A stretch of DNA of 47,079 nucleotides from NCBI GenBank assembly GCA_903842505.1, contig CAIMMI010000271.1, positions 1 through 47,079 of the forward strand, written 5' to 3'. The translations under genes were made by a program, and so were the position numbers. The notes beneath the pieces are model-generated. The model searched no databases. It was not told where the DNA came from and was given only the letters and a program-made list of their open reading frames with translations. Below, piece by piece: positions 3,504 through 20,759 of this stretch. Position 1 is the stretch's first letter. Each line of letters opens with the position of its first letter. The DNA is from an uncultured Verrucomicrobiota bacterium (GTDB lineage: Bacteria > Verrucomicrobiota > Verrucomicrobiia > Limisphaerales > UBA9464).

Positions 3504-3567
3504 GTGGGGCGAGACTCTGTCGAGCCCCTCGGCTGCGTCTGCCGGCTCGTGAGGACACTCGCCCCAC
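3504..3567. repeat. GTGGGGCGAG palindromic repeat, copy A (both half-site forms)
   Basis: Left half: GTGGGGCGAG, then ACTCTGT, then CGAGCC (3504-3526). Right half on the opposite strand: GTGGGGCGAG, then TGTCCTCA, then CGAGCC (3544-3567). The halves can pair through a ten-base outer stem and a six-base inner stem, leaving an asymmetric internal loop of 7 and 8 bases and a 17-base apex. The right half is identical over 24 bases to the left half of the copy at 20628. Confidence 0.85.
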
Positions 3568-9738: not shown

Positions 9739-10590
9739 ATGCCCACCGGAGCCAATCCTCCACCCCTCCCCGGGCCACCCCACTCCGGGGGGGCGAGCCG
9801 ATCCAATATCTCATGCAGCCCAGGTGGGGCGAGTGTCCCCACGAGCCGATCCCTCTGGTCCCACTCCCTGCTGCTTCTGCTGCTGCCCTTCCTGTTCCGC
9901 CTCAGTGCCGCCGATCTTCCCACTCCGCCAACCCCCACCCACCAGACCAACCAGATCGAAGGTTGGACCCTTCACATCGACCTGCGACTCCTGAAGGACG
10001 AACCCGAAGCAACCCCCAAGGCCATCGAACTCCTCCGGATCCAGCTTCAGGAAATCGTCCGCGTCGTCCCCGCTCCGGCCGTCGCCCGATTGCGCGAGGT
10101 CCCGCTCTGGTTCTCCTCCCCCTACCCCGGTGTCGGTCCGCGCGCCGAGTACCATCCCGATGCCGGTTGGCTCCGCTCCAATCACCGGAACCCCGCCATG
10201 GCCCGCGCTGTCGAGTTCACCGATATCAAGGACTTCGAGGCTGAAACCCGCCGCATGCCGAACTTCACGCTCCACGAACTCGCACACGGCTACCACGACC
10301 GGGTGCTGCCGGGAGGCTTCGGCAATCCAGACCTAAAGTCCGCCCACGCCCGGGCCAAAGGCTCCGGGAAGTACGACAAGGTCGAACGCAAGGATGCGCA
10401 GGGCCGTTCCCACACCGACCGCGCCTACGCCCTCGTCGACCCCATGGAATTCTTCGCTGAGTCCACCGAAGCCTTCTTCACCCGCAACGACTTCTTTCCC
10501 TTCGACCGCACCCAACTCCACGACGCCGATCCGGAAACCGAGAAACTGATCGGCCGTCTCTGGGGTGTTCCTTCCTTTACCAAGCCATGA
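9739..10590 (+). CDS. Secreted zinc metallopeptidase-like protein
   Basis: The zinc-binding HELAH lies at residues 179-183 ([13 protein letters not shown]), and a downstream acidic helix [14 protein letters not shown] (from 234) can give the third ligand. This arrangement recalls anthrax-lethal-factor-like (ATLF) peptidases. A hydrophobic run ([13 protein letters not shown]) ends near residue 57 and looks like a signal peptide, but it begins about 44 residues after the only ATG of the frame. The bases between encode repeat sequence (9794-9852). No ATG, GTG or TTG lies in frame between, so either the ATG at 9739 is used and repeat DNA is translated, or a CTG just before the hydrophobic run is. 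The stop overlaps the next gene by four bases (ATGA). Substrate unknown. Confidence 0.75.
9794..9852 (+). repeat. GTGGGGCGAG palindromic repeat, copy B (single half, inside a coding start)
   Basis: One form-2 half at 9824-9847: GTGGGGCGAG, then TGTCCCC, then ACGAGCC. It differs from the other form-2 halves by one base. Just before it, at 9788-9804, is a shortened version in which GGGGCGAG runs directly into CCGATCC, and the same CCGATCC follows the full half. In the reading frame of the peptidase gene this gives the repeated peptides GGASRS and [10 protein letters not shown]. Confidence 0.75.
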
Positions 10591-16303: not shown

Positions 16304-16446
16304 GAGTTCCCAGTTTCAAGATTCGAGTTTCAAGCCCGGTGCCAGCTTCAAACCGGAAGCTGTGAACTTCGATCTCCGAAGCGGCTCGACGGAGTCTCGC
16401 CCCACCGGTTTCCCCGCTTCAAACTGGAAACCTGAAACTTGAGACT
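16304..16446. repeat. GTGGGGCGAG/TTTCAAG composite repeat, copy C
   Basis: Three modules in order. A TTTCAAG-rich core on the plus strand (from GAGTTCCCAGTTTCAAG at 16304) comes first. Next is a form-1 half on the minus strand (16383-16405: GTGGGGCGAG, ACTCCGT, CGAGCC). Last is a second core on the minus strand (GAGTCTCAAGTTTCAGG, ending at 16446). The form-2 half seen in copy D is absent on the left. It lies between two minus-strand genes. Confidence 0.75.
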
Positions 16447-17145: not shown

Positions 17146-18426
17146 GTGAAGCCGACCGACCTCCGGGGAATCCTCCGATACATCCCGCGTTTCCGGGAGA
17201 AGACCTTCGTCATTGCGGTCGACGGGGCCATCGTCACGGACGACAACTTCCCCAATCTCCTGCTGGATATCGCGGTCCTGCGCTCGCTGAACATCCGCAC
17301 AGTGCTCGTCCACGGCGCTGCGCTCCAGATCAGCAGCCTGGCCGCCGAGCGGGGTCTGACGGCCTCCAATCTCGACGGTGTCGGCATCACGGACTCCACC
17401 ACACTCCAGCTATCGCTGACGGCGGCCAACCGGTTGACGCACGAAATCCTCGAGGGTCTGTCGGCCAACGACCTTCGGGCCGCCTCCACCAACGCCGTCA
17501 TCGCCCATCCCCTGGGCATCGTCGGCGGGGTCGATCACCAGTTCACCGGCAAGGTCGAACGGGTCGACACCGAGATGCTCCAGGGCCTGCTCCAGCAGGG
17601 CATCGTTCCGGTCGTTCCGCCGCTCGGCTTTGATGGCGATGGCAAGACGTTCCGGGTCAATTCGGACGCCATCGCGTTCGCCCTCGCCTCGCAACTCCGC
17701 GCGGTGAAGCTCGTCTACATCACGACCTCCGACGGCCTCTATCATCAGGATCGACTCCTGCGCCAACTACCCGTCAGCGAATTGCAGGCACTCCTCCAGA
17801 TGCACGCGTCCGAATTGCGTCCGGAGACGCTTTCCAAGGCCCGCCATGCCGTGGCCGCTTGCGAGGGTGGCGTGCCGCGCGTCCACATCATCAATGGCTG
17901 CGTCGATGAAGGCCTCCTTGCCGAAGTTTTCTCCAACGAAGGCATCGGCACCCTGGTCTACGCGAACGAATACACCCAGATCCGCCGGGCCCTGAAGAAG
18001 GACATCCGGACCCTGCTCAACCTGACCAAGGCGCCCATGGCCGCCTCCGAACTGGTCAAGCGCACCCGGACTGCGATCGAGCGCCAGTTGGCCGACTACT
18101 ACCTGTTCGAGATCGACAAGAACCCGGTGGGCTGTGTCGCCCTCCATCTCTACCCGGAGCAGAACAAGGGCGAACTCGCCTTCCTGTTCGTCAGTCCCTC
18201 CCACGAGAACCAGGGTATCGGCAGCAAGCTCGTTCAGTACGCTGAGAATCGAGCCCGCGAACTGGGCCTTTCGGAACTGTTCACCCTGTCAACTCAGGCG
18301 TTTACCTGGTTCCAGAACAAGGCTGGTTTCGTGGAGGCTTCCCCGGATGACCTGCCACCCCAACGCCGGGAGCGCTACGACGCTTCGGGCCGGAATTCGA
18401 AGGTGCTGCTCAAGCGGCTCCGCTGA
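17146..18426 (+). CDS. argA: Amino-acid N-acetyltransferase (N-acetylglutamate synthase)
   Basis: Transfers acetyl from acetyl-CoA to glutamate, the first step of arginine synthesis. It has the classical two-domain layout: an amino-acid-kinase fold (about residues 15-280, with VHGAALQIS in the GG-loop region and RVNSDAIAFALASQL) fused to a GNAT acetyltransferase domain (about 290-425, with LAFLFVSPSHENQGIGSKL as the acetyl-CoA loop). 426 residues fits the bacterial ArgA form, in which the kinase-like domain binds arginine for feedback control. The start codon is GTG at 17146. No other arg gene is in the window. A diverged repeat copy follows it. Confidence 0.93.
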   Translation: MKPTDLRGILRYIPRFREKTFVIAVDGAIVTDDNFPNLLLDIAVLRSLNIRTVLVHGAALQISSLAAERGLTASNLDGVGITDSTTLQLSLTAANRLTHEILEGLSANDLRAASTNAVIAHPLGIVGGVDHQFTGKVERVDTEMLQGLLQQGIVPVVPPLGFDGDGKTFRVNSDAIAFALASQLRAVKLVYITTSDGLYHQDRLLRQLPVSELQALLQMHASELRPETLSKARHAVAACEGGVPRVHIINGCVDEGLLAEVFSNEGIGTLVYANEYTQIRRALKKDIRTLLNLTKAPMAASELVKRTRTAIERQLADYYLFEIDKNPVGCVALHLYPEQNKGELAFLFVSPSHENQGIGSKLVQYAENRARELGLSELFTLSTQAFTWFQNKAGFVEASPDDLPPQRRERYDASGRNSKVLLKRLR

Positions 18427-20627: not shown

Positions 20628-20759
20628 GTGGGGCGAGTGTCCTCACGAGCCGTTGCTGAGTTCCGAGTTTCAGGGTTCAAGTTTCAAGCCCGGCTCCTGC
20701 CACCAACTTGAGCTTGAAAACCTCGATCTCTGGGACAGCTCGTCGGAGTCTCGCCCCAC
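20628..20759. repeat. GTGGGGCGAG/TTTCAAG composite repeat, copy D (complete)
   Basis: Form-2 half at 20628-20651 (GTGGGGCGAG, TGTCCTCA, CGAGCC), then a TTTCAAG-rich core (about 20657-20730, with GAGTTCCGAGTTTCAGGG and TTCAAGTTTCAAGCCCGG), then a form-1 half on the minus strand ending at 20759. The ends are exact ten-base inverted repeats. It lies just past the pheT stop, between pheT and the oxidoreductase gene. No target-site duplication is obvious. Confidence 0.85.

Follow-up and report, generated by a model that had tools for sequence, protein, structure and literature searches.

The window, the whole stretch of 47,079 nucleotides that was analyzed, contains four loci of a short repeat whose halves come in two forms. 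Two of the loci are intact doublets (3504-3567 and 20628-20759) and the other two are single halves (9824 and 16383), rather than the five or more loci in 47 kb counted in the first-pass annotation. At 3504-3567, the two-form sequence was as that annotation had described: an inverted pair with form 1 on the plus strand at the left and form 2 on the minus strand at the right. The exact frame, GTGGGGCGAG-N7/N8-CGAGC, has six matches in the window, which start at 3504, 3545, 9824, 16384, 20628 and 20738. The bare 10-mer, searched in the window with one mismatch allowed, was not enriched (14 found and 11.3 expected), and therefore it is the longer frame that matters. The features of the four loci are listed below.

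3504..3526, plus strand: REP form 1, left arm of doublet A, with a GTGG head and a GAC-TCT-GTC upper stem and loop; predicted fold ....(((..(((...)))..)))
3527..3543, no strand: spacer of doublet A
3544..3567, minus strand: REP form 2, right arm of doublet A, with a GTG-TCCT-CAC upper stem and loop; predicted fold ....(((..(((....)))..)))
9824..9847, plus strand: REP form 2, single half, exact frame match
16304..16382, no strand: spacer remnant of a long-class doublet, AGTTTCAAG...GCTTCAAA..., assigned by eye from its likeness to the consensus spacer
16383..16405, minus strand: REP form 1, single half, exact frame match
20628..20651, plus strand: REP form 2, left arm of doublet B (a long-class unit of 132 bp), exact frame match
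20652..20736, no strand: conserved spacer of doublet B, from the consensus of the long units
20737..20759, minus strand: variant of REP form 1, right arm of doublet B, with the middle ACTCCGA and one upper-stem pair broken

The half at 9824 overlaps a called reading frame within its first 110 bases and may be upstream of where the gene really begins. Judged by its sequence, the half at 16383 appears to have been the right arm of a unit, the spacer of which is still recognizable; no form-2 arm could be recognized by eye beside the remnant at 16304..16382 when the locus was compared with the consensus. The intergenic stretch that holds the doublet B spacer has dozens of partial relatives in the same genome. 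Elsewhere in the window (17146-18426), a Pfam search identified an amino-acid kinase fused to a GNAT domain, a combination found in N-acetylglutamate synthase.

Structure of the Two Forms

Each half is an imperfect hairpin of its own, 23-24 nt long, with the arrangement 5'-GTGG-GGC-GA-[upper stem, loop]-GA-GCC. Form 1 folds as 5'-GTGG followed by GGC GA [GAC TCC GTC] GA GCC, and form 2 as 5'-GTGG followed by GGC GA [GTG TCCT CAC] GA GCC. The difference between them resides in the upper stems (GAC/GTC versus GTG/CAC), which covary across relatives, and the GA/GA irregularity below the upper stem is conserved in both. The single-half fold was the computed optimum of the isolated strand for both forms; the isolated hairpins were no more stable than shuffled sequences (z -0.37 and -1.04).

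Covariation was analyzed in 56 distinct hairpins from this and related genomes, all of which consist of a G[GT][AG]G head followed by GGCGA, 10 nt of middle sequence and GAGCC. The three basal pairs say nothing on covariation because the search pattern fixed them and made them invariant. For many of the hairpins, the search that located them had also fixed the outer G-C pair of the upper stem and left the two inner pairs free. At the middle upper-stem pair, C-G and G-C were found 16 times each, T-A eight times, A-T four times and T-G once, and 11 hairpins were unpaired at this position. Over all six pairs, 93.5% of the cells were paired, compared to 77.5% in shuffled sets and 24-41% in slid registers, and 56 cells had changed on both sides, compared to 22.6 after shuffling. 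The covariation is in the upper-stem pairs, and therefore the middles, which the first-pass annotation had set facing each other as the mismatched internal loop of one palindrome, are the upper stems and loops of two separate hairpins. A single arm-to-arm palindrome was rejected as the conserved structure since the covariation falls within the halves. The arm-to-arm fold was also the computed optimum in both doublets tested (z -3.71 and -4.95), so two folding states are possible, and the long fold may, on the basis of these computations, exist as a second state beside the separate hairpins. Two such folds have been discussed for REPINs (PMC3116915).

Copy Number, Location and Pairing

The first-pass annotation had anticipated very many copies per genome. 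The genome of origin (G000; 5.21 Mb in 362 contigs, 95.6% complete) has 156 exact frame copies with N7 and 173 with N8, while the reversed control gave 1 and 0; among the matches listed, about 100 per spacing, nearly all were form 1 or form 2. Doublets and positions were counted in the window and 40 chosen stretches of this genome (629 kb), 34 of them picked for REPs and 6 for RAYT matches. Because the stretches were chosen, the repeat densities in them are not genome averages. A total of 215 loose matches were found in the 41 stretches; 53 were like neither form and were left out, and 162 copies were kept (77 of form 1 and 85 of form 2). All but four of these (158 of 162) lie outside called genes, though 86% of the bases in these chosen stretches were called coding by a home-made gene caller. 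For the 148 copies with a called gene on each side, the gaps were convergent in 35 cases, tandem in 75 and divergent in 38; 31, 72 and 45 were expected from gap length (chi-square p 0.41, with the same home-made caller). These repeats are REPs (repetitive extragenic palindromes), imperfect hairpins with a GTGG foot, in high copy number and extragenic. The REP-like nature proposed in the first-pass annotation was borne out by copy number, hairpin covariation and intergenic position.

The copies form 99 clusters in the 41 stretches, and 49 of the clusters are single halves. Sixty-three pairs of neighbors lie within 250 bp of each other: 53 are inverted and unlike, one is inverted and alike, nine are direct and alike, and none is direct and unlike. 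The lone inverted pair of like halves consists of two form 2 copies. Random pairing of the two forms had been named as the outcome that would speak against the family, and 53 of the 54 inverted pairs were unlike (binomial p 2.7e-15 for one alike in 54). As 62 of the 63 neighbor pairs obey the pairing rule, the strand fixes the form within clusters. It had also been pointed out that, in one polarity, form 2 is always at the left and form 1 at the right; this is true, but it is uninformative, since it follows from any inverted unlike pair.

The heads point outward in 37 of the 53 inverted unlike pairs and inward in 16. Of the 37 head-outward pairs, 6 have a spacer of 13 nt and 16 have one of 84-89 nt; in 15 of the 16 head-inward pairs the spacer is 19-21 nt long. 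The head-inward doublets hold this length of 19-21 nt despite widely differing spacer sequences (e.g., L086:5506 and L077:17127). A doublet copied as a unit would have a conserved spacer and flanks that are not conserved, as is seen in 23 long units, in which the mean identity was 0.68 in the spacer and 0.27 and 0.23 in the 80-bp flanks. The edge of the unit is not absolute, with an identity of 0.39-0.43 within 20 bp of it, and about a fifth of the copies share extra flank beyond the edge. This extra flank of about 11 bp reads CCCCAGCGAG outside form 2 (17 of 85) and CGTTTCGGGG outside form 1 (11 of 76). Very long doublet spacers at L080:1678 and L086:18311 hold an extra repeat of GTACTC/GAGTAC units. 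The repeats are of the BIME type, with two REP types in alternating orientation and regular spacing, and of the REPIN type, with an inverted doublet and its conserved spacer as the unit.

The frame was intact in 85 of 113 clustered copies and 36 of 49 single copies; by this crude measure, taken over 162 copies, doublet REPs are not better conserved than single REPs. In searches for an empty site within the genus, the flanking genes of both doublets had matches in relatives, and no single match in the match tables spanned both flanks of either doublet. The joined sequence CCCC-GCGAG/GTTTCGG, a candidate "empty target", was absent from the 41 stretches.

RAYT Transposases

The first-pass annotation had seen no REP-type transposase and had suggested a search for a linked Y1 (REP-associated) transposase. 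Its absence holds for the window, in which no transposase was seen, but not for the group: such genes were found in relatives between the hairpins. RAYT genes, which encode REP-associated HUH/Y1 single-strand transposases, were first met between GTGG hairpins in genomes G058 and G028. A profile made from four such RAYTs (A1) was searched in named genomes, in 96 relatives and in 320 genomes of the order. The named genomes yielded 47 loci, mostly from Verrucomicrobia/Limisphaerales, with others from, e.g., Lentisphaerae, Kiritimatiellae, Planctomycetota and Acidobacteria. Hairpins of the same frame stand on both sides of the gene at 11 of these 47 loci and on one side at two. For the 56 distinct RAYTs used in the tree, the numbers were 16 with hairpins on both sides, 4 on one side and 36 on neither, within 300 bp. 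Five distinct RAYTs (L223, L224, L226, L227 and L268) have exact form 1 on either side, inverted around the gene; at L226 the whole unit of about 550 bp consists of form 1, a 156-codon gene and form 1 inverted. The L230 RAYT has exact form 1 on one side and a copy with one mismatch on the other, and the L225 RAYT is flanked by GGC-TCC-GCC versions. Form-2-like GCG...CGC hairpins are present at L188, L189, L219, L220 and L221, with exact form 2 downstream of the L220 RAYT, and GTAG-headed and GGAG-headed versions were found at other RAYT loci. The REPtron layout, a RAYT flanked by two inverted cognate REPs, is thus present in relatives.

The PDHLH and Y[VL]xENP motifs are invariant in the four RAYT members, and the profile matches the solved E. 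coli TnpAREP structure (4er8, E 4.5e-8). Seven proteins of the subfamily scored 58-78 bits on NF047646, below its cut-off of 80; a Pfam search with the same seven produced no match in six and Y1_Tnp only at E 0.064 in one. A GTGG-family REP that leaves the reading frame unbroken was observed inside a RAYT at L169:2348-2371 (RAYT at 1972-2604), and REPs also lie within the L220 and L221 RAYTs. In the P0002 RAYT, the in-gene REP sits between the HuH and Tyr motifs.

In a tree of the RAYTs, from which identical proteins and rows below 110 bits or 140 residues were left out, the GTGG group came out as a single branch (99/97) and the GTAG group as a separate one (91/92); the form-2-like RAYTs make up a branch (100/98) that sits inside the form-1 RAYTs. 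The hairpin labels required 5 changes on this tree, compared to 19.2 when shuffled, so that hairpin type tracks the RAYT phylogeny. Among RAYT carriers, 37 of 61 genomes had at least 10 REPs of the GKRG...N10 frame, versus 34 of 259 other genomes (Fisher p 1.4e-13, a test in which kinship is ignored). Of the 71 REP-rich genomes of the order, 34, including the genome of origin, have no RAYT of the A1 profile at E 1e-30.

Six RAYT-like matches were obtained in the genome of origin, one of them (C245) above the family cut-off, and this RAYT is surrounded by hairpins that belong to a different REP family. The assembly of 362 contigs at 95.6% completeness yielded no close cognate RAYT; the best match in it (82 bits) lies beside the other REP family. 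This second family has a GTAG head (GTAGGCTGCGTGCCCCCACGCGGC, GTAGGCCCGGGTGCCCTCACCCGGC and variants, at L069:1-1070 of contig C245 in G000), with 35 copies in the 41 stretches and none in the window; its unlike hairpins alternate at 13-15 nt around the RAYT P0005. At L108:4934-5105, one of its doublets is nested inside the spacer of a form 2/form 1 unit. Another RAYT-like protein, in C309 (L070:3687-4532), has its HLH motif intact and an Asn aligned to the catalytic Tyr, and may be inactive or domesticated; a form-2 REP copy lies 180 bp upstream of its gene.

Proposed Spread of the Repeats and Alternative Explanations

Most likely, these repeats are a hairpin family spread by a small transposase, the gene of which is bracketed by these hairpins in related bacteria. 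More specifically, the copies in this genome are very probably non-autonomous REPINs with a GTGG head, mobilized in trans by a RAYT that has since disappeared or is missing from the assembly. A GTGG-recognizing RAYT would have been supplied in trans, would have bound the folded single-stranded hairpins by reading the head and the GA/GA stem irregularity, and would have cut beside the hairpin and carried whole doublets into the DNA between genes. The cognate RAYT would later have been lost, or would lie in an assembly gap, and the resident REPIN population would have remained. This mechanism of binding, cutting and moving is established for E. coli TnpAREP, and we infer that it applies to the Limisphaerales REPs. 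With E. coli TnpAREP, the head and the stem irregularity both matter, and with a Marinomonas enzyme a GTGG head permitted cutting at CC (PMC8266576).

The same evidence bears on three other explanations. A single functional structure made up of the entire inverted pair (a long hairpin, a cruciform or an RNA), in which the facing mismatched middles are the recognition site, would agree with the computed arm-to-arm optimum of both doublets and with the nearly obligate unlike pairing in this genome. Yet the middles covary inside each half and not between arms, 49 of the 99 clusters are single halves, form 1 makes like-with-like doublets without the mismatched loop in genome G107, and no Rfam match was present in the window, all of which makes this explanation very improbable. 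A described Rfam RNA was rejected because no family matched the window at gathering thresholds; this result and the lack of a gene-orientation preference also go against the structured RNA that the first-pass annotation had offered as an option. It is equally hard to credit that the hairpins are transcription terminators or mRNA 3'-end stabilizers kept for gene expression. The copies do sit between genes, and such roles have been reported for some E. coli REPs (PMC6006769), but there is no preference among convergent, tandem and divergent gaps (chi-square p 0.41) and the hairpins have no T-run following them. The lack of an orientation preference led to the rejection of this role as a general explanation, and a secondary role in expression may exist at single sites. 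The 132-bp unit, with its inverted ends and conserved interior, could be taken for a conventional MITE that has terminal inverted repeats and depends on a DDE transposase for its movement; however, each of its ends is a hairpin headed by a GT[AG]G-type sequence, and where genes were found between ends of this kind they code for RAYTs, leaving this origin with a very slim chance.

Under the preferred explanation of REPINs mobilized in trans by a RAYT, the pairing of unlike forms has to be accounted for as well. Genome G107, where a form-1 RAYT is resident, has form 1/form 1 combinations in 19 of 33 close inverted pairs, a tally made among the matches listed for a genome with 127 places; there are none among the 54 inverted pairs counted in the genome of origin. 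Since form 1/form 1 pairs are common in G107 and missing from the pairs counted here, unlike pairing belongs to the population of the genome of origin and not to form 1. The simplest explanation is that whole units descend from a founder with unlike halves. The idea put forward in PMC3733652, that dimers with imperfectly pairing arms are protected from clearance, is compatible with the data as a cause of unlike pairing. It is also conceivable, though unlikely, that two REP lineages, which in relatives go with separate RAYT lineages, have fused here into a near-obligate two-ended unit. If so, the mobile element would need two RAYT specificities or a relaxed one, and its unlike ends would prevent the formation of a single perfect, easily cleared long hairpin.

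Comparison with Known Systems

Published work already covers REPs, BIMEs, REPINs, unlike dimers, GTGG heads and in-gene REPs (PMC3733652, PMC3116915, PMC2817692, PMC6006769 and PMC8266576), and REPs in Verrucomicrobia were already shown in Opitutus terrae (PMC3733652). A text search for the letters of the repeat returned no title on this repeat among the matches listed. PMC4666352, a text match for GGGGCGAG, deals with E. coli intrastrand triplex motifs, which are of another design, and this candidate was rejected. In a search of the REP/RAYT literature for the phylum, PMC3733652 was the only paper on REPs there among the matches listed. As far as these searches reach, the hairpin family and its strict two-form pairing appear to be newly described; the family may be the same as GTAG-20 of O. 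terrae.

The closest parallels described in PMC3733652 are the GTAG-tagged REP families, including GTAG-20 of O. terrae. These are also short stem-loops with a terminal GTAG or GTGG, and most O. terrae GTAG-20 elements have the GTGG terminus. They too form head-outward and head-inward dimers, with unlike dimers being exclusive in some families, and their spacers are conserved in the head-outward dimers and variable in the head-inward ones. An unpaired GA in the stem is shared with P. aeruginosa GTAG-24 (PMC3733652). Unlike the host of GTAG-20, the host of the present family belongs to the order Limisphaerales. As in the E. coli BIMEs, with their Y and Z REPs (PMC8266576 and PMC2817692), two REP types alternate in opposite orientation, the 5' head is GT[AG]G, the stem has an irregular zone and the RAYT is related to 4er8; the GTGG head, the GA/GA irregularity and the RAYT subfamily found here set the present system apart from the E. 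coli BIMEs and TnpAREP. The REPINs of Pseudomonas fluorescens SBW25 (PMC3116915) resemble it in that an inverted doublet with its spacer is the probable unit of spread and that the RAYT has adjoining REPs. In SBW25, however, 93% of the doublets are inverted pairs of the 16-mer of one REP type (PMC3116915), whereas the halves described here are of two forms, and the doublets here, unlike those of SBW25, are not better conserved than the singles. The three G-C pairs at the base of the REP stem are shared with TnpAREP subclass 2.4 (group 4), as is an in-frame REP that lies, as in P0002, within tnpAREP and separates its HuH motif from its Tyr motif (PMC6006769). The motifs of that subclass are NH[IFV]H and YIxNNP (PMC6006769), in contrast to PDHLH and Y[VL]xENP in the present proteins.

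Across Limisphaerales, these results reveal a REP-RAYT system whose hairpins and transposases visibly change together: form-1, form-2-like, GTAG-headed and GGAG-headed hairpins map to branches of one RAYT subfamily. The hairpins keep a fixed GGC-GA...GA-GCC frame with a covarying upper stem, and their natural variants make the recognition code open to testing. Unusually, the two forms go with separate RAYT lineages in relatives, yet both are joined in this genome. According to the discussion of unlike dimers in PMC3733652, there is no obvious explanation for why some REP families pair only unlike. The genome of origin, where pairs are unlike, and G107, where pairs are often alike with the same form 1, offer a natural contrast.
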